The position numbers and the translations under genes were made by a program. DNA of 64,000 nucleotides from an uncultured Prevotella sp. (lineage in GTDB: Bacteria; Bacteroidota; Bacteroidia; Bacteroidales; Bacteroidaceae), in assembly GCA_946404405.1 (NCBI GenBank), contig CAMJDL010000005.1, positions 56,495-120,494 on the forward strand. Reading direction: 5' to 3'. The first letter of the stretch is position 1, and every line of letters begins with the position of its first letter. A model generated the notes under the pieces. It was not told the DNA's origin. It did no database searches and worked only from the letters and a program-made list of their open reading frames with translations. Below, piece by piece: positions 491 through 11,743 of this stretch.

Positions 491-3400
491 TTATCCGACC
501 ACTTTACCGAATTCTTTTTCTATGAGTTCTTCCATCCGACCTTCCTTGGCATAGGGGACTGTATCCACTTGCCGGAAGTTGCTCTGTTCTGGTTGAAGTG
601 TGGGATCGAAGCCGAGTATATAGCGAGTGGCTATAAGATAGATGATGCGTGTTGGAGCAAATCCATACACTTGATGTTTGAGAATGTGCTGAATACGCTC
701 TTTGTCATCAGGGATTTGTCGGCACATCTCTACATTATTATATAGTCGACGCACAATCTCGGTAATATATAGGCCAGATTTCATATAGAGGTCGGCAAAT
801 GTTTTATTGGGGTCTTCGAAGATATGGGGATTCTCCTGTTCCAGCAAGTCCACCATCTTTTTGACCACCCATTTGGGCGTGAAAATCTGGTTGGTCTTCT
901 GCGGAGGTATATAGTCGAAGATGTCCTCGCTATGTGATTCATCAAAATAGTTGGCCAAGTCCATCCTTTTCTTTCTGAACTCAGCTATGGCATCGTCAAA
1001 CACCACTTCATCGAACAGATGCCCGTTGAAGTGTTTCTGCTCTCCGTCTTCAGTATAGTTGCCGCCATCCCTCAGGAAGCGGAATTCATCGAGTGTGATA
1101 CTGGTAACCTCTTTGAAGACTTCATCTTCAATGTTCTTGTCAAAATTATCGAGTGTAAGATGTCCTTCATCGTATGCCATAATGAAACTTGGAATTGTTC
1201 GGGCAAAGCCACGCAGATGCGCGCGAACTTCTTCTTCCACGCTGTCTTTTCTCCGCTCTTCCTTGTCTCTTTCAATGCGTTCGATAACCTCCTTTGGCTT
1301 ATTATTGATAATCTCGTCGGTAGCTTCTTTTATGGCATCATTCACGCCCTTCAATGCCGACTCCATCTCTTTGCGGAAGGTCTTTTCAGCATCCTCCAAA
1401 TCTCTCTCATTGGAAGCCTGCTTAATAGCCTCTTCGTGCTTCACCTCAGCAATTTTACGTTGTTGCTCGAAATCACCCTTTATTTTCTCTATCGTGGTTT
1501 CCACTTCTTTGTGTGAATCCCTAACTATACGCTTGGTTTGTGCCTTTGTAAGCTCATATTCTTCCGATGCAGGATTAATGATGTTTTGCTCTACTGCTGC
1601 TTTCAGACTATCGCCCACACGATTGATAGCCGTCAGCACTTGGTCGGCACTTTCTGCTGCCTTCGGTATTTCATCCTCTATCTTATCAAAGGTCTTATAT
1701 AACTTGTCGCCAAATATCTGCTGTTCCTGACCTATGATAAGCTCTTCAGGAATCATTACTTCGCCGTTATCGTCAACACTCACATTCCCAGCTTCGTCAA
1801 GGTTAGTACCTGTGCTCCGTCCTCGCTCTTCGTGGGCTTTATCCAACTTCTTTAGTATCTCGCCCACTATGGCGGGAGCACTGAATATGTTTGCAATGTT
1901 CCTGAACAAGAGATTGCTCATAAACCCTCTTCTTACCACTTCCTCGCATTTAATTTTTCTCGGGATGCTGAGCACCTTGTGCTCGTCAATTTGCATCATC
2001 CTTCCTTCATCGTCTTCTGCTATGACAGGGAAGAAGTTCATCAGCTGTTTGATGTTCTGCTTGCGCTCATCAGTTGTACCGCTACCTCCAGCAGTACTCT
2101 TTTTCAGGTTATTGGCAAACTCGTCATAGAGTATCAGCGTTCTTGCCGGGTCGAAATCGAAGACATAGGCATTTTCCTTTCTCACGATTTTCCCTCCTTC
2201 TGAATATTCGTATGGGTTCTGTGCCCTGAAAGCGGCCTGCATATATAGCTGAGCACTCTGCATATTGCTGAGCATCAATACTCCGCTCCATTCAGGAATA
2301 GTCACACCCGTAGTAAGCTGGCCTACACTCAGCGTGATTGTTTTGTCGTTGTTTTTGATGGCATCCTTTACCTTGTTATATGCTTTGACAGTTTCATCAT
2401 TGTCGTCCATCTTGCCGTCGCCAGCAGCCAGCACGACCTCATAGTCTTCGAATCCGCTACCTCCTTCTTTCAGTAGTTTAGCCATAGCTTTGGCACTATC
2501 GACACGGTTGAGTAGCCAGAAAGTGTGGGCCATTTCTTTTCTTAATTCCTCTGTTGCAAATGGAAACTTCTCCTGTGTTGTCAATGCCTTCAGGAATTTA
2601 CGCACATCTGTCTCATGCTCAAACTTGCCATCCTCTTTGGTCTTGAAGAACTCGTTGAGGTCGAAAGCATAGTCAATCGCTCCTTCCTCGTCCAGTTCCA
2701 TACCTTGTTTTACCTTTTCGCGCACGATGTCGCTCATGCGGTAAGTAAAGAGGTTAAGTTTTGGAAGTTCTTGATATGGGTTGTGGTTGTTGTCTGTCCA
2801 GTTGGCTTTAGCCTCCTGTTCGTCAGTGTAGCTCCAGTTGAATATCTGATAATCATCGAACTCTCCCGAGGCGATAGCCTTGAATGGTGTGCCGCTCAAA
2901 TAGAGTGTGAACTTGCGTTGGATATTGTTGAAAGCACGATCGGTACGCATGGTGTCCACTCCCTCATGACTTTCGTCCACAATCAGCATATCCCAACGTA
3001 ATTCTTTAATCCATTTCAGTTTATTATAATTTCCACCAAAATAGACGGAGCCTTTTAGTCCTTGCAGGCTTTCGAAACAAATCTGTCCTGCGAAGTTCTC
3101 ATCGCGGTTTGGGAGCCATTTCAGAAACATATCTCGTGTCATAACGCCCTGTCTGCCTCGCAACGACTCGTTGTCACTTACAAAGAGGTAGCCCGTTTGC
3201 CCTGCCATATATTTTTCGAAGTCATCATACCAAGAGTTAGCTATCGATGGGCGGTTAGTGACAATCAGCACATTCTTCGCCTTCATTTGTTTGATCAGGT
3301 CGTAGGTCGTGAGAGTTTTGCCGAAACGAGGTTTTGCATTCCATAGGAACTTACCCTCTCCGTTGTGGTCTATCAGGTAGGCCATAGTCTTTTCTGTGGC

Positions 3401-3799
3401 ATCCTGCTGCTCTTTACGGAGTTTATAACTATAGTGCAAGCCCTTTTGTTGGTAGTCTCGGCTGACGAACTCCTCGAAACACCGTCTTAGTTCCTGACCG
3501 TCTATGCGGAACCATTCCGTGTGGTCGTTGCGCTCAATGCCCTTGTGTTCTGTCAAAAAGTCATGGAAGTCATGGTCACGGAAATAGGTACAGTCATCGC
3601 GATACATGGCGATATCCTTCCATTCCAGAATAAACTGCACATCGGCAGTTTGCGTCTGCTGCTTGATGCGCTTGTGTACACCCTGCTCCGTATCGCCGAT
3701 TTTCAGCCATCCATTGTGGCGTGCTATCTCAGGAGTGCTGTAAGCATACATCATCCTGACGAAAGAGTTGAAACTCTGAATTCTGGTTGCGTCCATCAT
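491..3799 (-). CDS. Restriction-associated SF2 (DEAD/DEAH-like) helicase subunit with N-terminal GIY-YIG/T5orf172-like domain and C-terminal MTase-like segment
   Basis: 1102 aa; Walker A NAKPRFGKTLTTY, DESHEG box; N-term YAYSTPEIARHNGWLKIGDTEQGVHKRI...TEWFRID fits the T5orf172/GIY-YIG pattern; C-term NQIFTPKWVVKKMVDLLEQ...FADLYMKSGLYITEIVRRL resembles MTase motif X/I. Confidence 0.85.
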   Translation of the reverse strand: MMDATRIQSFNSFVRMMYAYSTPEIARHNGWLKIGDTEQGVHKRIKQQTQTADVQFILEWKDIAMYRDDCTYFRDHDFHDFLTEHKGIERNDHTEWFRIDGQELRRCFEEFVSRDYQQKGLHYSYKLRKEQQDATEKTMAYLIDHNGEGKFLWNAKPRFGKTLTTYDLIKQMKAKNVLIVTNRPSIANSWYDDFEKYMAGQTGYLFVSDNESLRGRQGVMTRDMFLKWLPNRDENFAGQICFESLQGLKGSVYFGGNYNKLKWIKELRWDMLIVDESHEGVDTMRTDRAFNNIQRKFTLYLSGTPFKAIASGEFDDYQIFNWSYTDEQEAKANWTDNNHNPYQELPKLNLFTYRMSDIVREKVKQGMELDEEGAIDYAFDLNEFFKTKEDGKFEHETDVRKFLKALTTQEKFPFATEELRKEMAHTFWLLNRVDSAKAMAKLLKEGGSGFEDYEVVLAAGDGKMDDNDETVKAYNKVKDAIKNNDKTITLSVGQLTTGVTIPEWSGVLMLSNMQSAQLYMQAAFRAQNPYEYSEGGKIVRKENAYVFDFDPARTLILYDEFANNLKKSTAGGSGTTDERKQNIKQLMNFFPVIAEDDEGRMMQIDEHKVLSIPRKIKCEEVVRRGFMSNLLFRNIANIFSAPAIVGEILKKLDKAHEERGRSTGTNLDEAGNVSVDDNGEVMIPEELIIGQEQQIFGDKLYKTFDKIEDEIPKAAESADQVLTAINRVGDSLKAAVEQNIINPASEEYELTKAQTKRIVRDSHKEVETTIEKIKGDFEQQRKIAEVKHEEAIKQASNERDLEDAEKTFRKEMESALKGVNDAIKEATDEIINNKPKEVIERIERDKEERRKDSVEEEVRAHLRGFARTIPSFIMAYDEGHLTLDNFDKNIEDEVFKEVTSITLDEFRFLRDGGNYTEDGEQKHFNGHLFDEVVFDDAIAEFRKKRMDLANYFDESHSEDIFDYIPPQKTNQIFTPKWVVKKMVDLLEQENPHIFEDPNKTFADLYMKSGLYITEIVRRLYNNVEMCRQIPDDKERIQHILKHQVYGFAPTRIIYLIATRYILGFDPTLQPEQSNFRQVDTVPYAKEGRMEELIEKEFGKVVG

Positions 3800-5685
3800 A
3801 CCATCTCCTTTACCTTAGTCCGAATGAAGTTCCGCTCTGCCTCGTCTAAGCCGTATTTGTCGAACAGTTGCTCGTCTATCTCTGTGATGCTCTTGCTCCA
3901 GTCAATGTCAGAGGAAAGGGTGAAGTCTTGGAGGGGAACAAAAGCCCATGTCGCTCGTTTATTATCTTGAGTAACCTTAAGAATACTGAGCAGAGCCCTA
4001 CAAAAACGTGTTTTTAGATATTTCAACAATCTTTCTGCTTCTTGCAAGGTGGCTAATTTCCCTATAGAAATAAAAGTCTGAGTATGTCCTATTCCTTTAA
4101 CTCCCACAAAAGGGGAACTTAAAGTTTCGCCAAAGGCTCCGCTACCATTTGACTTAGGAAGAATGACTTTGTTATAATCGAAATTGTCAGGTGGATTTAG
4201 GTATGATTTGCGAATCCACCGATATGCTCTTTTCCCCCCTTCCAAACCTATGATACGAACATAGTCATGTCCGTCATTTGGTCTTTCTTCATAGAACGCA
4301 ATATCTTTTAGCTTTTCCAGGACATTAGTTGTAACATCAAATTTATGACCCGCACTCAACTTATCTACTGCGTCTGTATGTTCATCATGCAATAGCTGAG
4401 TAAACTTATACGATTCTGGTGCATATATCCATGAACTAAGATTTGTTTTAATGAAAGGCTCAATTTTCTCCTTTATTGTACGCATCTCATCGTAAACTAT
4501 GAAATGACCTATGGGAGAGAACAACTTCTCTGAATTATAGTAGGTGATGGCAACTCCACCTTTAATATCAGTATTTGAAAAGATTTTGCTACAATCCCTT
4601 TCGTATGTCATAACTTTCAAATGCTTGTCTGCAAGCATTTTTATATTCCATTCTTTTGGAGTCTTTCCTGCATTAAAAAGCCATCGTGCAGGGGTTATCA
4701 GTTCTACAACTTGAGCATTCTTGTAGGACTCATCCATAAAGAAATTGTATATAGGAGGATTACTTGTACCCTCCAATTCCTCCTGATACGGTGGATTTCC
4801 AATAATTACATCGAACTTCATAATATTCTGGTTTTTAGTTTGACGTTTTTTGATGTCGTTTACTTTGATAGCTTCTCCTTTCTGCCAGTCCATGATTTTG
4901 CAAAAGGGAGTTGGAGAAATGACGGGGGCTTCATCAAAAAAGGAAAGCTGAGTATGTTGGAGTTGATCTTGTCTCTCACGAGGAATTCGGTACGAAAGTC
5001 CATCCATTTGCCAAAGGTTCCAGGAGATGATTTCGGCAAATTCTTGTAATAATGAAATTTCTGGTTTATTACCGAAGCGTTCCTCGTAATAGTCAATAAA
5101 AGTATAGAGCAGGTTTTCACGAGCCAGCAGCAAACTGTCACCCTGCCACTCGTAGCCATAGGTGCTCTGAAATGCCTGTTGCACTTGTGTGAGCCATTCT
5201 TCATCACTAATCTGCTGAGCATTGACCATGCAAAGTTTACGATCGAGTATACCAATACGCTCGTTGATGGCAATTGGCTCACCTGTTGTAGAGTCATAAC
5301 GGGAAACGAGAAAAGGGGCTTCGCCACAGGTAAGTTCCAGACTGCGTGTATTGATGTCAATATCTACATAGTCCACCATTTTTTTCACTATCCACGATGG
5401 GGTGAACACTTCAGCCATACCCTTGACTCGGTCCGTCTGTTCCTCCTTTGATTTGAGTACACGAGGACGAATCACCATTCCATGCTCACCCGTTATCAGA
5501 TGGGGCAGAATCTCAGAATGGTAATCATACTCTGGGCCGAGCGCTTCATAATCATGCGTAGCCCAGAAGATGTTTCGTCCTGTGGTATGGTCACGCAGCA
5601 GTGTATCAAGCACCTCCGCCGACAATGCCAGCAGGTCGTCCTCCCTGATGTCAATCAGCTGAGGACTCTCGTCTTTGTTGGACAT
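3796..5685 (-). CDS. Eco57I-like N6-adenine DNA methyltransferase (restriction-modification)
   Basis: 629 aa; AEVFTPSWIVKKMVDYVD, SLELTCGEAPFL (motif I) and FDVIIGNPPYQEE (motif IV NPPY); overlaps downstream helicase gene by 4 bp. Confidence 0.9.
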   Translation of the reverse strand: MSNKDESPQLIDIREDDLLALSAEVLDTLLRDHTTGRNIFWATHDYEALGPEYDYHSEILPHLITGEHGMVIRPRVLKSKEEQTDRVKGMAEVFTPSWIVKKMVDYVDIDINTRSLELTCGEAPFLVSRYDSTTGEPIAINERIGILDRKLCMVNAQQISDEEWLTQVQQAFQSTYGYEWQGDSLLLARENLLYTFIDYYEERFGNKPEISLLQEFAEIISWNLWQMDGLSYRIPRERQDQLQHTQLSFFDEAPVISPTPFCKIMDWQKGEAIKVNDIKKRQTKNQNIMKFDVIIGNPPYQEELEGTSNPPIYNFFMDESYKNAQVVELITPARWLFNAGKTPKEWNIKMLADKHLKVMTYERDCSKIFSNTDIKGGVAITYYNSEKLFSPIGHFIVYDEMRTIKEKIEPFIKTNLSSWIYAPESYKFTQLLHDEHTDAVDKLSAGHKFDVTTNVLEKLKDIAFYEERPNDGHDYVRIIGLEGGKRAYRWIRKSYLNPPDNFDYNKVILPKSNGSGAFGETLSSPFVGVKGIGHTQTFISIGKLATLQEAERLLKYLKTRFCRALLSILKVTQDNKRATWAFVPLQDFTLSSDIDWSKSITEIDEQLFDKYGLDEAERNFIRTKVKEMV

Positions 5686-5755
5686 TCTTTAATCAAATCA
5701 GACTTCACCTCAGCAATTGATGCAAGCATCATTGCTTTCGGTTTGCGCTGATTTT

Positions 5756-5912
5756 GCGCTTATAACTTTTGGACAATAAGCACTTATCGGAACTCTTTGG
5801 GCTTTAACACGTCAAAGCCTCTATACACGATAAAAGCGTGTCCGCTCTTACCAGATATAGAGGCTCTCGCATGCCCAACCAAGTGATAAGTGACGTCCAC
5901 GCCTATAAGCGC
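5756..5912 (-). ncRNA. Structured leader RNA candidate upstream of the RM operon
   Basis: Nested perfect inverted repeats: 5756-5764/5904-5912 (9 bp), 5770-5774/5895-5899 (5 bp), 5781-5788/5885-5892 (8 bp), 5816-5825/5856-5865 (10 bp); lies between a promoter (6059-6089) and the MTase start (5685). Confidence 0.6.
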
Positions 5913-6058
5913 GAACAATCACAATTATCAGCATCTTGGTTTGATAAGGAAATTTGCGAGATTTCTATATCTTCCTAATAACTGCTCATGTCGTTATTTG
6001 TTTTACCCTCAAAAGTCACACCGGCACCTCCACTGAGGCATACGCCAATGTTCAAGTG

Positions 6059-6089
6059 CAAAAGTACGAAAAACAATTGAATGTGCAAA
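6059..6089 (-). promoter_or_regulatory. Bacteroidetes-type promoter for RM operon leader
   Basis: Minus strand TTTG (6086-6089), 19 bp, TACTTTTG (6059-6066); matches TTTG-N19-21-TAnnTTTG. Confidence 0.65.
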
Positions 6090-6462: not shown

Positions 6463-7047
6463 ATGAACAAAAACATGAACAGCAATGAGGAAGCCCTCAG
6501 CTTATTTAATCGCCTGCTTGAACAACTTCATCAGGCAGGCATCATCAAAATTGATAATTTAGTATTCGTCGCCCCAAGCGCACAGTATGTTAACCACATC
6601 GACACTCAAATCTTTGGTGAGCGGCAACAGGAGAAGGACACATCATCTGCTGCACCCGTGAAAAGCACACCACTGCCACCAGAGCTCAGTATAAGAGATC
6701 GCATTCGCATGAGTATTGCATTGTTAATGGAAGAAAGGGCTGGCGACGAGCCACTATTCAATCTGCAGGGCCATTGGCAGGCCGTCTATCGCATCCTTGT
6801 GGATAAGGGCTACTGCCGTGATTCAGACTTCGACGGCTTCGATGCCTTCATCCGTACTGTGATGCCTGAGAAGGTGAATAAGCCGTACTCGAAGGGCTCA
6901 CTAAAGCAGATTAGTCAGACTGACTTTGTTCGACCTTTCAGCGAATGGAGATACGACGTACTGACATCGAAGACGCGCAAACCTTACGACCGGATGGTAG
7001 CCGTGGCAAGAAGATTTCTTGAGATTCTTGAACAAAATGGGCTGTAG
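6463..7047 (+). CDS. Hypothetical protein (194 aa)
   Basis: Long ORF after an A-rich translation initiation region typical of Bacteroidetes; no family recognised. Confidence 0.7.
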   Translation: MNKNMNSNEEALSLFNRLLEQLHQAGIIKIDNLVFVAPSAQYVNHIDTQIFGERQQEKDTSSAAPVKSTPLPPELSIRDRIRMSIALLMEERAGDEPLFNLQGHWQAVYRILVDKGYCRDSDFDGFDAFIRTVMPEKVNKPYSKGSLKQISQTDFVRPFSEWRYDVLTSKTRKPYDRMVAVARRFLEILEQNGL

Positions 7048-7069
7048 GAAGTAAAAAGTTAGTTAATTA

Positions 7070-7101
7070 TTTGGAAGTTACGGAAAAACTTCCTATCTTT
7101 G
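7070..7101 (+). promoter_or_regulatory. Promoter with palindromic spacer (operator candidate)
   Basis: TTTG (7070-7073), 20 bp, TATCTTTG (7094-7101); spacer contains GGAAGTT (7073-7079) and AACTTCC (7087-7093). Confidence 0.65.
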
Positions 7102-7107
7102 CAACGT

Positions 7108-7204
7108 CAGAAATGACTAATCCGGTATTTTCCGCGTGGGAGTAAGACTGAACCGCCCCTGCTCCAATTTTACAAAAGAGTCGCACAAGTTGCGGCTCTT
7201 TTAT
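7108..7204 (+). ncRNA. Small RNA candidate (about 95 nt)
   Basis: Promoter to terminator unit with no ORF beyond a 10-aa MTNPVFSAWE (7113-7145). Confidence 0.5.
7174..7204. terminator. Bidirectional intrinsic terminator
   Basis: aaaagagtcgcacaagttgcggctctttta hairpin between converging units. Confidence 0.7.
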
Positions 7205-7764
7205 TTTCCATATTTTCTGGAGAACGATAAAACAAAGTATTTGTCAAGCGCATAGCCTCGTTTGATGGAGATTGCTTGACCTCCTTTGAATATCAACACT
7301 TCTGAGGCTTGAGGATTCAACTCGAAGTATCGCTTAATCTGTGTAGCAAACAGACGTCCATTGTATGTGGTTGCCATGTTTAGGAGTACATGGTTTGTTT
7401 GGCCGATGGATTCTGCCAAGCGATTTATGATAGAAGACTTGCCTTGAATGGTTTTCAAGTCATACATTCGAAAGAGTCCCTTGCGCTCGAAGATAAAATC
7501 GGCAGTACGTATACCTTTCGGATTTGGCAGGATGAATACTCTATAGCCATGTGTGACTGCCCTCTGTGCAGCACTTAACAATGCTGGGAAATCTTCGTCG
7601 CTCTCACTGATAGCAGTGTATATGTATGTCTCACCCTTCACCAGACGGAACTCCTTCCTCATGGTGATGGACTGCAACTGACGTGAGAACTCAATGCCCC
7701 GAAGGATATGGAGCTGTGCCAATTCAAGGGCGATGTCACTGCTGTTTCGTAAATCTTCTTCCAT
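7201..7764 (-). CDS. Hypothetical protein, PD-(D/E)XK/CdiA-CT-like nuclease candidate
   Basis: IRTADFIFERKGLFRMYDLKTIQGKSSIINRLAESIGQTNHVLLNM. Start moved to ATG 7764 because the track start (TTG, 7803) lies in a -33 promoter box. Confidence 0.6.
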   Translation of the reverse strand: MEEDLRNSSDIALELAQLHILRGIEFSRQLQSITMRKEFRLVKGETYIYTAISESDEDFPALLSAAQRAVTHGYRVFILPNPKGIRTADFIFERKGLFRMYDLKTIQGKSSIINRLAESIGQTNHVLLNMATTYNGRLFATQIKRYFELNPQASEVLIFKGGQAISIKRGYALDKYFVLSFSRKYGK

Positions 7765-7772
7765 ACAGTTTG

Positions 7773-7804
7773 CAAAGGTACGAATAAATGAGTAAAAAAA
7801 CAAA
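7773..7804 (-). promoter_or_regulatory. Promoter of 7201..7764 gene
   Basis: Minus strand TTTG (7801-7804), 20 bp, TACCTTTG (7773-7780). Confidence 0.65.
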
Positions 7805-7810
7805 TTTATA

Positions 7811-7865
7811 ACCCACGTTTTACCCCACGCCTTAACTTTTAACCCACGTCTTAACCCAGCGGTAA
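7811..7865. repeat. Iteron-like direct repeats
   Basis: acccacgtttta (7811), ccccacgcctta (7823), acccacgtctta (7842), partial acccagcggtaa (7854); starts spaced 12, 19, 12 bp. Confidence 0.6.
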
Positions 7866-7959
7866 AAACCTTGCAGGAAATTGTAAATCTTCGTACCTTC
7901 GCCGGTGTCTAGACAACGTGTGAATTAATAACAATTTCGAACAAAAAACTGAATGAACA

Positions 7960-9090
7960 ATGGACAAAATGGATTCCATCGACGAGGCTATCCAGCAGGC
8001 TGGTCAGCCTGCTGACATCACGCCCGAACTGATAAAACTCGACAGCGACCGTATCACCTCCGACAGCGATGCCCCCGAAGAGGTGTTCCTCTACAAGATG
8101 TGTGGCACGCCGTGCTTCCCGCGTGGCGACCTGACCACGGTGACGGGACCTGCTAAGAGCGGCAAGACGTACTATATATCGATGCTCATGGCCTGTGCCG
8201 TCGGACATGAGGTGTTGGGATTGGAGCGGATTCGCGAGGAACCGCTCAAGGTGATGTGGTATGACACGGAACAGAGCCGATATACCACGAAGCGTATCTT
8301 GACAGACAGAGTCGGGAAGATGTTGGACCAGACAACTTTCCCCGACGAGCTGTTCTATGTCTTCAACGTACGTAACAGAACCACGGAGGAACGCCTGGAA
8401 TATCTGACACAGGCCATAGAGACCTATAAGCCAGATATCTGCATCATTGACGGTATTGCCGACCTGCTGGACGACATCAACAACGGCCCGAAATCGTTGG
8501 AGGTCATGATGCGTCTGTTGGCACTGGCTGCTGAACAACATTGCAACATCACAAACGTTATACACCTGAACCGGTCTGGCGATAAGATGAACCTGCGAGG
8601 GTGGATAGGTACGGTGATGGTGCAGAAGTCGTACGAGGTGTTCAACTGCGATAAACTGGGCAAGACCGATGCTTTCACCGCAGCGTTGACATTCTCCAGG
8701 CGTTTCCCTAAAAACGACGGTCTGTGTTTTGAGATTGACAACAACGGACTGCCCGTGGCCAGCAATGCCAACCGACAGGCAAACACTCAGGAAGCGTCAT
8801 CTGATGGTCATGGTATGCCCGACAAACAGTCGTTCAATCAGGAATTCGTTGACAGCGAAGCCACAGACCAGTATCTCCCCTGGGACTTCCGTAAGCTCTT
8901 CGATGCTGCGTTCGATACGACAGCCATGTTGGGGTACGATGATTTGAAGCAGCGTGTTAAGACGTTAGCGAACATCAAGCGTGGCACATACTACGATAAA
9001 CTGTTTGCAGAGGCCGAGCGTCGTCGCATTGTCCACAAGGAAATGATTAAGGGCGGGCGCATCGGTGTCATGCTGCTTCCTCCTTCGTAA
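7960..9090 (+). CDS. RecA/RepA-like AAA ATPase (AAA_25 type)
   Basis: Walker A VTGPAKSGKTYY; Walker B-like DICIIDGIADLL; 376 aa. Confidence 0.8.
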   Translation: MDKMDSIDEAIQQAGQPADITPELIKLDSDRITSDSDAPEEVFLYKMCGTPCFPRGDLTTVTGPAKSGKTYYISMLMACAVGHEVLGLERIREEPLKVMWYDTEQSRYTTKRILTDRVGKMLDQTTFPDELFYVFNVRNRTTEERLEYLTQAIETYKPDICIIDGIADLLDDINNGPKSLEVMMRLLALAAEQHCNITNVIHLNRSGDKMNLRGWIGTVMVQKSYEVFNCDKLGKTDAFTAALTFSRRFPKNDGLCFEIDNNGLPVASNANRQANTQEASSDGHGMPDKQSFNQEFVDSEATDQYLPWDFRKLFDAAFDTTAMLGYDDLKQRVKTLANIKRGTYYDKLFAEAERRRIVHKEMIKGGRIGVMLLPPS

Positions 9091-9152
9091 ACATCCCCCC
9101 TCCATACATACCTCCCCCTATACAGGGGGGAGGGTATGGTATGAGGGGATGT
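9091..9152. repeat. Long imperfect palindrome
   Basis: acatcccccctccatacatacctccccc...gggggagggtatggtatgaggggatgt; no T-tract after it. Confidence 0.6.
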
Positions 9153-9201
9153 TCTACAGGAGGAGAAGCAAGGAGTGTGATGAGGTAAGATGGCTGATGT
9201 C

Positions 9202-9220
9202 AGAAGTAAGAAGTAAGATG
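9202..9220. repeat. Heptamer-type array
   Basis: agaagtaagaagtaagatg just before ATG of 9222 CDS. Confidence 0.6.
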
Positions 9221-9221
9221 T

Positions 9222-10010
9222 ATGAAGTTAAGTGAGATTTTTACGGATACGTTCAAGGCTCTGAGGCACGAGCTGGGCCACGACCGCCCACGTGACAATC
9301 GTCCTATGTGGCAGCAGCGGCAGTCATCCGACAGCGACTTCTGCCGTGCGTTAGTGGCCAACGGCTATATGACCGAGGCGCAGATGCAGCATGCCGCTGA
9401 GCGTTACCGACTGGGCCGCAGCCGCGACGGCGGTGTCATCTTCTGGCAAATAGACACCACTGATTGCATCTTCGACGGCAAGATCATGTACTACCGCGCA
9501 GACTGTCACCGCGACCACCACCGCCATCCGCAGTGGGTCAGCAACTGCATGAAGCGCTACTATCTGAAGGACTACAAGGATGGGAAAGTCGAGGAAGACA
9601 AGGCGCTGATAGCCAGCATCCCGTCCTACCACTGCCTGTTCGGAACGCACCTCCTTGGAAGTGAAAAACGAATAGTGAAAAGTGAAAAGTTGGCTATCGC
9701 GGTTGTAGAGGCGGAGAAGACGGCGGTGATTATGTCGGAGCATTTTCCGCAGTACCTGTGGCTGGCAGCTGGCGGCCTCTTCGAACTGACTGCCGACAAG
9801 CTCTTTCCGCTGCGCCAACACCGCATCATCCTCTTTCCCGATACCGACCCTGACCTTAAGGCCTACACCCGCTGGTACGATATAGCCCGGGAGGCCCGCC
9901 GCCTGTACGGATGTGCTATATCTGTCAGTCCGCTGCTGGAACAGCGTGCCACGCCCGAGCAGAAACAGCGGAAGATAGACCTGGTGGATTATTTGTTTGA
10001 AACCCCATAA
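9222..10010 (+). CDS. Toprim-containing, DUF6371-like primase-related protein
   Basis: VVEAEKTAVIM...IILFPDTDPDLKAY fits Toprim E and DxD motifs. Confidence 0.65.
   Translation: MKLSEIFTDTFKALRHELGHDRPRDNRPMWQQRQSSDSDFCRALVANGYMTEAQMQHAAERYRLGRSRDGGVIFWQIDTTDCIFDGKIMYYRADCHRDHHRHPQWVSNCMKRYYLKDYKDGKVEEDKALIASIPSYHCLFGTHLLGSEKRIVKSEKLAIAVVEAEKTAVIMSEHFPQYLWLAAGGLFELTADKLFPLRQHRIILFPDTDPDLKAYTRWYDIAREARRLYGCAISVSPLLEQRATPEQKQRKIDLVDYLFETP
9657..9692. repeat. Heptamer array inside Toprim/DUF6371-like CDS
   Basis: ggaagtgaaaaacgaatagtgaaaagtgaaaagttg (KRIVKSEKL). Confidence 0.75.
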
Positions 10011-10030
10011 CACGAAGTATTATAACCCTT

Positions 10031-10369
10031 ATGATTAATTATTACGACAAGAACCGTTTCATCAGCAAGAGCACGTTGGCACGGTTGGCCGACGTCTCAC
10101 CACGAACCTTCAGCCGCTACCTCGCCAGCCGACGGGAGATTCTCAAGATTTTCGGTGTTTCTCCGAAAGCCCAGAAACTGCCTCCTTATGCCGTCCGCTA
10201 CATCTGCGAGGACTACTGCATCGACCTTCCTCCCGAACTTCAGAATCAACAGGCCCTCAATGCCTCGCCCATCCGTGACATCATCCTTAAATCGTGGGAA
10301 GAAGAGCAGAATTTCAAAAAAAGTTCACGACTGTCGGGCAAAGTCGGACAGCGGCCTTCAGGATTGTAG
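10031..10369 (+). CDS. DUF4248-like protein
   Basis: MINYYDKNRFISKSTLARLADVSPRTFSRYL...; typical neighbour of the HU-like gene in Bacteroidales. Confidence 0.7.
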   Translation: MINYYDKNRFISKSTLARLADVSPRTFSRYLASRREILKIFGVSPKAQKLPPYAVRYICEDYCIDLPPELQNQQALNASPIRDIILKSWEEEQNFKKSSRLSGKVGQRPSGL

Positions 10370-10422
10370 TACCTTTGCATTGTCAATCAAGAGAGGTGGC
10401 AACAGTGTCCTCCAATGGTAGA

Positions 10423-10488
10423 AATTGCGAATATTAATAGAAAAAATTGCGGGAATTAATAGTAGCAATTGCGGGAATTAATAGTAGC
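10423..10488. repeat. Three tandem 22-bp repeats
   Basis: aattgcgaatattaatagaaaa (10423), aattgcgggaattaatagtagc (10445), identical copy (10467). Confidence 0.85.
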
Positions 10489-10574
10489 AAAAAAAGCCTA
10501 AGGAGAGCACAAAACTAAATCTCGATGAGCGACACAATACAAACTTATTATCAACTTTTTAATTACAAACAGTT

Positions 10575-11126
10575 ATGGCTATTAAAGTAATTGCACAGCG
10601 CCGAGTGCTGAAAATCGGCAAGAATCCGGGAGTGAAGAAGTTCGTGATGCGTCCCGACCTCTACATCCCGATGGCAGAGAAGAAGGTCTTCTCCGAGGCA
10701 GCCACCCATAGTGGCATCTCGGCAGGTATCATCAAGGCCGCATGGGATGCAGCAGGCGACGTCATCCGCACCTGGGCCACTGAAGGTCACTCCGTGCCCG
10801 TTCCTGGCTTGGGCACCATGCGCTTCGGCGTTCGTTCCAAAGCCGTCGAAGAGTTGGAGGATGTCAAGACGAACCTGATTACCACGCGCCGCATCATCTT
10901 CACGCCATCAGTGGACGTGAAGGATGAACTGAAGAACACCTCGATCCAGATTACCTGTATTGACGAGGAAGGCAACGTGCTGAAGCGTGTGACTTCGGGC
11001 GACAGTGGCGACATCGAGGACACCGAGAATGGAACCACGGGTAACGGATCTACGGGTGGCGGAAGTTCGAACACCGGAGGCAATAACGGCGGAGGCGGCG
11101 GTGACGACGAGCCGGATGAGAACTAA
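10575..11126 (+). CDS. HU-family DNA-binding protein with Gly/Asn-rich tail
   Basis: MAIKVIAQRRVLKIGKNPGVKKFVMRPDLY...; tail GNGSTGGGSSNTGGNNGGGGGDDEPDEN. Confidence 0.85.
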   Translation: MAIKVIAQRRVLKIGKNPGVKKFVMRPDLYIPMAEKKVFSEAATHSGISAGIIKAAWDAAGDVIRTWATEGHSVPVPGLGTMRFGVRSKAVEELEDVKTNLITTRRIIFTPSVDVKDELKNTSIQITCIDEEGNVLKRVTSGDSGDIEDTENGTTGNGSTGGGSSNTGGNNGGGGGDDEPDEN

Positions 11127-11127
11127 C

Positions 11128-11157
11128 AAAGAGTGTGCCCTTCGGGGCAGGCTCTTT
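11128..11157 (+). terminator. Intrinsic terminator
   Basis: aaagagtgtgcccttcggggcaggctcttt. Confidence 0.7.
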
Positions 11158-11159
11158 CT

Positions 11160-11221
11160 AAATGAGAAATGAGGAATGAGAAATGAGAAATGGAAATGAA
11201 GAAATGAAAAATGAGGATTGA
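11160..11221. repeat. Heptamer-type array
   Basis: aaatgagaaatgaggaatgagaaatgagaaatgg... Confidence 0.75.
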
Positions 11222-11225
11222 GCGT

Positions 11226-11327
11226 ATGAAAAAGGAAACATGGAAGGCGATTATTCAGGTGGTAATAACGATTCTGACCGCCATTAGCTCAACAGTATTG
11301 GTACAGTCATGCGGACTATTACGTTAA
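11226..11327 (+). CDS. Smalltalk-like small membrane protein (33 aa)
   Basis: MKKETWKAIIQVVITILTAISSTVLVQSCGLLR, below the ORF-track length cutoff; overlaps the amidase start by 19 bp. Confidence 0.75.
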   Translation: MKKETWKAIIQVVITILTAISSTVLVQSCGLLR

Positions 11328-11743
11328 TCGTGATTCATTGCAGTGCGGTGCGCCCAGACCAGACATCATCGGCAGCCCAGATAGACACGTGGCATCGCCA
11401 GCGGGGCTTCAAGCTCGGCATCGGCTACCACTACGTCATCCGTCGTGACGGAACGATAGAGCTGGGACGTCCGGAATGGATGATAGGTGCCCACTGCCAC
11501 GTAGCAGGCCAGAACCACAACAAGTACTCGATAGGCGTATGCTACGAGGGTGGTCTGGACATCCGCGGTCAACCCGCCGACACGCGTACTGAGGCACAGA
11601 AGCAGACCATGCGGCGGCTACTCGAAGAGCTTCACGAGCGTTACCCCCGCGCCGTGATAGTCGGGCACCACGACCTAAACCCCCACAAGGACTGTCCGTG
11701 CTTCGATGCTGCGCATGAGTATCAGGATCTGCAGCCGAAATAG
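11309..11743 (+). CDS. N-acetylmuramoyl-L-alanine amidase (Amidase_2)
   Basis: LIVIHCSAVRP...GYHYVIRRDG...GHHDLNPHKDCPCFDA. Confidence 0.9.
   Translation: MRTITLIVIHCSAVRPDQTSSAAQIDTWHRQRGFKLGIGYHYVIRRDGTIELGRPEWMIGAHCHVAGQNHNKYSIGVCYEGGLDIRGQPADTRTEAQKQTMRRLLEELHERYPRAVIVGHHDLNPHKDCPCFDAAHEYQDLQPK

Follow-up and report, generated by a model that had tools for sequence, protein, structure and literature searches.

Processive-antitermination leader RNAs, such as the put RNA and the EAR element, are located at the heads of operons, and to our knowledge the terminator that they regulate is not contained in the leader itself. DUF805 RNA was reportedly defined in a survey from 2017. Many uncharacterized Bacteroidetes RNA candidates from human microbiomes have been presented in PMC8040213, the main text of which does not mention an association with RM genes. 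Some of these candidates could be fragments of the leader RNA reported here. In the literature searched, including the main text of PMC8040213, no earlier description of this RNA was found.

Here, we analyzed a stretch of 64,000 nucleotides from an uncultured Prevotella sp. (the window), in which a first-pass annotation had pointed out a long leader in front of an RM operon. Judged by sequence comparison, this leader belongs to a family of cis-regulatory RNAs that is spread across the phylum, has conserved competing helices, and is absent from Rfam 15. The Rfam scan suggested in the annotation was run: at the gathering score of Rfam 15, the window gave no match, and neither did the core of the RNA in 40 further loci. 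Around the window leader, nothing credible appeared at E ≤ 10. The relaxed matches (algC over the promoter and eukaryotic microRNAs) were at chance level and were discarded, with the exception of DUF805 at one distant locus. DUF805 and DUF805b (RF03081 and RF02914) have no match in the window. In three distant loci, DUF805/DUF805b motifs are found approximately 22–38 nt downstream of the core (L096, 1395–1463; L115, 704–773; L091, 1443–1478), where some leaders of those lineages may use them as a 3′ module; the remaining loci that were scanned gave no match to either motif.

Layout of the leader and the downstream operon

The leader and its operon consist of the following parts.

6059..6089, minus strand: Bacteroidetes-type promoter TTTG-N19-TAnnTTTG (TTTGCACATTCAATTGTTTTTCGTACTTTTG), read from the sequence
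6021..6046, minus strand: 5′ hairpin, GCCUC/GAGGU within GGC/GCC (sequence and MFE)
5686..5752, minus strand: extra 67 nt between the RNA element and the ATG, with a dispersed repeat
5685, minus strand: start codon ATG of the methylase
3796..5685, minus strand: downstream gene, Eco57I/type IIG-like DNA methyltransferase of 629 aa (Pfam, PADLOC)
491..3799, minus strand: second gene of the operon, T5orf172 and ResIII/SNF2 helicase protein of 1102 aa

The promoter had been placed exactly in the first-pass annotation, and the long structured leader before the methylase ATG is confirmed. The 376-nt leader has an MFE of −143.6 kcal/mol compared with −97.5 ± 5.4 kcal/mol for 100 dinucleotide shuffles, none of which was equally good (z = −8.56). 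The four perfect helices that had been listed are also present at exactly the coordinates given there, namely, GCGCTTATA/TATAAGCGC (9 bp), TGGAC/GTCCA (5 bp), CACTTATC/GATAAGTG (8 bp), and AGCCTCTATA/TATAGAGGCT (10 bp) on the minus strand, and AACCAAG at 5935–5941 is an exact match to CTTGGTT at 5877–5883. The 5′ hairpin is specific to the subgroup of the window and is common to many Prevotella-type copies. The extra 67 nt are missing from most close homologues, in which the RNA element ends 3–5 nt 5′ of the ATG. The dispersed repeat in this segment (around AAACCGAAAGCAATGATGCTTGCATCAATTGCT) was found by blastn at many unrelated sites of the genus, with at most five per genome.

The methyltransferase was assigned by Pfam Eco57I (4.9e-17) and PADLOC MTase_II (3e-87). 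Behind the promoter, mobile-element-type ORFs occupy 6463–11743, including an AAA_25 ATPase at 7960–9090 and primase-like and amidase-like ORFs recognized by eye, and the RM operon may be situated at the edge of an integrated element.

Conserved core and its covariation

A core of 155 nt with the helices P1, P2, P4, and P3 was obtained from an alignment of 28 sequences, from which the covariance model R1 was built; R2 was built from an alignment of 100 further sequences. The elements of the core in the window are listed below.

5823..5976, minus strand: conserved core (R1, 149.9 bits; R2, 113.5 bits)
5956..5971, minus strand: P1 5′ strand a (GATATAG, TCTCGC), two-sided change
5950..5955, minus strand: conserved AAAUUU of the internal loop, near-invariant columns
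5935..5941, minus strand: P2 5′ strand AACCAAG, covariation
5919..5931, minus strand: strand c, the P4 5′ strand and the alternative partner of P0
5909..5917, minus strand: strand d, the P3 5′ strand
5895..5902, minus strand: strand d′, the P3 3′ strand, with f as the alternative partner
5885..5893, minus strand: strand c′, the P4 3′ strand (UCACUUAUC), with e and the 3′ segment as alternative partners
5877..5883, minus strand: P2 3′ strand CTTGGTT, covariation
5873..5876, minus strand: GGGC, the last base of which covaries with the base before CCU (corrected mutual information)
5854..5870, minus strand: P1 3′ strand a′ (GCGAGA, GCCTCTATATC), two-sided change

Compensatory changes, which the first-pass annotation had proposed to look for, are abundant. 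In the 28 sequences, 21 of the 39 pairs change on both sides. Two-sided cells number 135 (44 in shuffles), and pairing is seen in 90.6% of the cells, compared with at most 46% in slid alignments. In the 100 further sequences, which were absent from the building of R1 but were aligned by fitting to this model and are biased toward it, two-sided change extends to 36 of 39 pairs, 92.8% of the cells are paired (≤44.2% when slid), and covariation scores 0.727, compared with 0.241 in shuffles. P1 changes on both sides at 13 of its 14 pairs in the first set and at all 14 in the second. The AACCAAG/CTTGGTT contact, previously described as "pseudoknot-like", is real and corresponds to P2, in which 6/6 pairs covary. 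When corrected mutual information was calculated for 82 sequences with no assumed fold, the top 18 column pairs all fell in P1 and P2, and this count also signaled pairing of the P3 3′ strand with a downstream strand. The GGGY/RCCU contact covaries with a corrected mutual information of 0.449 (C-G, 49; U-A, 42); part of the sequences are out of register in the regex count of GGGY/RCC, and the C-G and U-A cells alone were used. The last base of GGGC and the base before CCU are predicted to form a pseudoknot-like contact (C-G or U-A). GAAA, AAAUUU, and GGG are near-invariant and constitute a conserved unpaired core within conserved helices. With such massive compensatory change among its relatives, the leader is, on comparative grounds, a true structured RNA.

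The nested four-helix fold proposed in the first-pass annotation was dropped as the conserved core, as the phylogenetically conserved fold (P1, P2, P4, and P3) differs from it, and the P3 hairpin occupies the same bases as its outermost 9-bp helix. P2 and the alternative pairings remain from that proposal. For the 10-bp, 9-bp, and CACTTATC/GATAAGTG (8 bp) helices, the support is limited to a role as alternative pairings within the family of the window, where the 10-bp helix is a conserved alternative. A large extra hairpin is inserted in the P3 loop of six homologous loci (L249, L251, L252, L407, L408, and L437), and this loop seems to tolerate insertions.

Competing pairings and the U-run

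Several strands inside and outside the core can exchange partners. The additional segments involved are as follows.

5974..5998, minus strand: hairpin AAUAAC...GUUAUU (own-versus-swapped pairing test with strand c)
5974–5981, minus strand: UUAUUAGG, the 3′ strand of this hairpin and the 5′ strand of the alternative helix P0
5847–5853, minus strand: strand e, from the sequence
5832–5842, minus strand: strand f and the U-run, from the sequence
5817..5829, minus strand: strand a″, downstream competitor of a and half of the 10-bp helix
5780..5790, minus strand: 3′ segment CCGAUAAGUGC, a competing partner for c′ and for the P0 5′ strand
5756..5764, minus strand: strand UAUAAGCGC, which adjoins the start codon in most close homologues

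Located directly before the U-run, strand f duplicates the sequence of d, the 5′ strand of P3, and is therefore complementary to d′; the strand pair e–f repeats the sequence of c–d. In 170 homologues, the d′/f duplex has an average energy of −12.9 kcal/mol with its own partner and −10.8 kcal/mol with swapped partners (z = −17), and the corresponding z values are −9.3 for c′/e, −18.9 for P0/c, and +0.9 for the control, all of which can be inflated by the relatedness of the sequences. For 52 representatives of less than 68% identity, the values are −8.4 (d′/f), −6.0 (c′/e), −9.5 (P0/c), and −0.2 (control). Deviating d′ strands are accompanied by a matching f, as in GCAUGGGC/GUCUAUGC, CCGUGGAC/UUUCACGG, GUGCGGGC/GUUCGCAC, and others. 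These compensated d′/f pairs, many and distinct and from distant lineages, are a stronger argument than the z values. A U-run of 5–10 follows f in 170 of the 182 aligned homologues. Two mutually exclusive conserved pairings are present, P3/P4 on the one hand and d′/f, c′/e, and P0 on the other, and all of them covary.

Further exchanges are found in the family of the window. The own-versus-swapped z value is −13.3 for a′/a″, and those of the 3′ segment are −6.7 with c′ and −10.3 with the P0 5′ strand. Strand UAUAAGCGC pairs with the 5′ strand and the loop of P3, which is the 9-bp helix mentioned above (z = −9.3).

The nested fold is predicted to be better than the alternative by a median of approximately 8 kcal/mol. 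Therefore, thermodynamics alone would leave the terminator unformed, and its formation would have to be aided kinetically or in trans. In the window copy, f/d′ pairing is only 5 bp, the U-run length is 4, and f forms a local hairpin, AGCG-GACA-CGCU. Because of the short pairing and U-run, this subgroup may partly use the local hairpin or the start-codon pairing.

Distribution and genomic context

The suggestion that the element recurs was borne out by blastn and the covariance models, which found homologues across Bacteroidales. By blastn, a second full copy is present in the same genome before a paralogous methylase. In related genomes, full copies end 3–5 nt before the ATG of methylases from the same family, and other RM genes are preceded by partial copies. 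No match to the leader was found by blastn in phages and plasmids. With R1, matches were obtained in 261 of 399 family genomes and in 84 of 295 genomes from a sample of the order. According to R2, the own genome has 11 copies, and the number rises to 26 in another. Of 25 genomes searched with R2, most of them picked for having an R1 match, 24 were positive, and one genome of 3.5 Mb has no copies. Of 248 genomes in a phylum sample, 27 match R2, two of these being from the family of the window. A pattern scan gave hosts in Prevotella, Bacteroides, Phocaeicola, Alistipes, Butyricimonas, and Barnesiella and, further, in Tannerella, Muribaculaceae, Pedobacter, Niabella, Larkinella, Dyadobacter, and Kiritimatiellae/Verrucomicrobia MAGs, and R2 confirmed the subset of these hosts that was checked. 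The copies in Kiritimatiellae and Verrucomicrobia MAGs score 49–60 bits with R2 (L288, L291, L293, L294, L319, and L325) and may reflect either transfer beyond Bacteroidota or mis-binned contigs. Four IMG/VR viral contigs also carry the RNA (L397–L400), with the same type I restriction-like gene downstream in two and a lipoprotein-like gene in the other two; these contigs may be prophages or host flanks.

The placement relative to promoters and genes was examined by motif scans in 153 homologous loci. TAnnTTTG occurs in the 170 nt preceding the core at 137 loci (16 expected), and a promoter motif lies between the core and the ATG in one locus. A same-strand ORF starts at a median of 62 nt after the core. 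With the ORF this close and a promoter in between at only 1/153 loci, the gene would depend on read-through. The position looks like that of an operon leader.

In the family, 86 nonredundant downstream proteins include EcoRI_methylase (13), MmeI_N (9), N6_Mtase (8), PLD-type (8), HsdM_N (7), N6_N4_Mtase (5), Acyl_transf_3 (4), and D12 (3), in overlapping classes; this sample is biased toward RM, as R1 was derived from the leaders of RM genes and the copies retrieved were those with the best scores. Many RM models of PADLOC were also found among the family downstream proteins. The downstream genes in other families code mainly for BspA-like LRR proteins, secreted proteins, and lipoproteins, and some of them for RM. 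Copy-by-copy inspection of complete or nearly complete genomes gave lipoproteins, LRR proteins, HTH proteins, and RM downstream, and a gene-blind pattern sample gave RM and secreted proteins, among others. The idea of an RM-specific element was rejected, as it holds for close relatives of the window copy and other gene contexts occur across the family. Control of RM expression, as envisaged in the first-pass annotation, is compatible with the operon-head position before RM genes, but it is not the specific role of the element: the family also heads genes for surface proteins, lipoproteins, acyltransferases, and other accessory functions. In seven loci from another class of the phylum (L264–L268, L274, and L281), the first ORF begins approximately 220–370 nt after the core. 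Judged by eye, the proteins downstream are probable TonB-dependent receptors, and the longer spacer may carry further signals.

Proposed mechanism and alternative explanations

Here, we propose, with moderate confidence, that the leader is a cis-acting transcription attenuator of the terminator/antiterminator type. The comparison of homologues shows the structure with its mutually exclusive, covarying pairings, as well as the U-run and a promoter upstream with no second one following it; we infer the role of e–f as the terminator, the direction of the switch, and the conserved loop as the site of the signal. Transcription would start just after 6059. The 5′ part would then fold into the nested core of P1 (a/a′), P2, P4 (c/c′), and P3 (d/d′), which holds the conserved internal loop with GAAA...AAAUUU facing GGGY...RCCU. 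When this core is formed, e–f would be free, and the polymerase would read through into the methylase. When the core is undone, or when c is captured by the 5′ strand to form P0, c′–d′ would pair with e–f as the terminator. In the family of the window, the RNA may be reset, once the polymerase has read through, by the exchanges of a′/a″, of the 3′ segment with P0, and of the pre-AUG strand with the loop of P3, and these exchanges may touch the start codon. Because the targets have no common pathway, we favor a general factor, or a state of stress or infection, as the signal over a dedicated metabolite. As for the "regulatory or catalytic RNA" suggested in the first-pass annotation, the leader is of a regulatory type, and nothing indicates catalysis.

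A strict riboswitch, in which the GAAA/AAAUUU/GGGY-RCCU loop is the aptamer for one small molecule and c–d/e–f is the expression platform, is possible but unlikely. It would account for the conserved unpaired sequence in covarying helices, the covarying GGGY/RCCU contact, and the competing platform, but the targets, which range from RM and LRR surface proteins to lipoproteins, acyltransferases, and others, have no metabolic theme in common and give no hint of a ligand. Somewhat less probable is a free-standing, trans-acting small RNA of approximately 250 nt with its 3′ end at the U-run, the gene being a mere neighbor. The U-run does close the conserved core, and the high copy number and many gene contexts would fit such an RNA; however, the close same-strand ORF, with a promoter motif in between at a single locus, does not, and the conserved pairing reaches the start codon in the family of the window. 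A processive-antitermination element, by which altered polymerase would pass terminators further down the operon, is doubtful. Structured leaders at the heads of operons, long RM operons included, would agree with it, whereas many targets resemble short single lipoprotein genes and the conserved feature is a competition ending in the leader U-run, not a simple hairpin. A mobile DNA repeat with an accidental structure from inverted arms is very improbable: the multiple copies in many unrelated contexts would be expected of one, but they are highly diverged with compensated helices, keep a fixed orientation and distance to the downstream gene, and have a promoter upstream. Least credible is that the region encodes a small protein (MREPLYLVRADTLLSCIEALTC), the mis-annotation of which had been suspected in the first-pass annotation, since the frame starts with an ATG in the window but, on inspection of the alignment, the ATG is missing in most homologues (GGGCAATCTCAGG replacing GGGCATGCGAGAG), indels break the frame, and variation tracks helices rather than codons.

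A further speculation concerns the targets of the RNA family. RM systems, surface lipoproteins, outer-membrane receptors, and surface-modifying acyltransferases might conceivably constitute a phylum-wide regulon of phage-facing Bacteroidota genes under one RNA switch class, although we regard this as unlikely. They could be switched jointly by one signal (e.g., an infection or envelope-stress cue), or stochastic folding could give phase-variation-like heterogeneity without DNA change. The RNA heads genes that govern encounters with phages and hosts, and its signal could reveal how restriction and surface variation are controlled. It is a large RNA with very clear covariation and up to 26 copies per genome in a dominant gut phylum, yet it has no Rfam entry. 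The competing helices allow direct mutational tests.

Comparison with known regulatory RNAs

DUF805 and DUF805b are also Bacteroidetes leader motifs and cis-regulatory candidates, but they are 35–68 nt long with small hairpins, have other sequences, and do not contain the present core. A close likeness in layout is that to trp/pyr-type attenuators and terminator-type riboswitches, which share the promoter-proximal leader and the mutually exclusive helices. As in attenuation leaders, a U-run follows the competing strand, and gene expression would depend on read-through. Unlike in those leaders, the core is much larger and more elaborate, with several strand exchanges; the copy number is very high, the targets have no shared pathway, and termination is putative. 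Compared with the put RNA and the EAR element, the present RNA is distinguished by a conserved competition that ends in the leader's own U-run.
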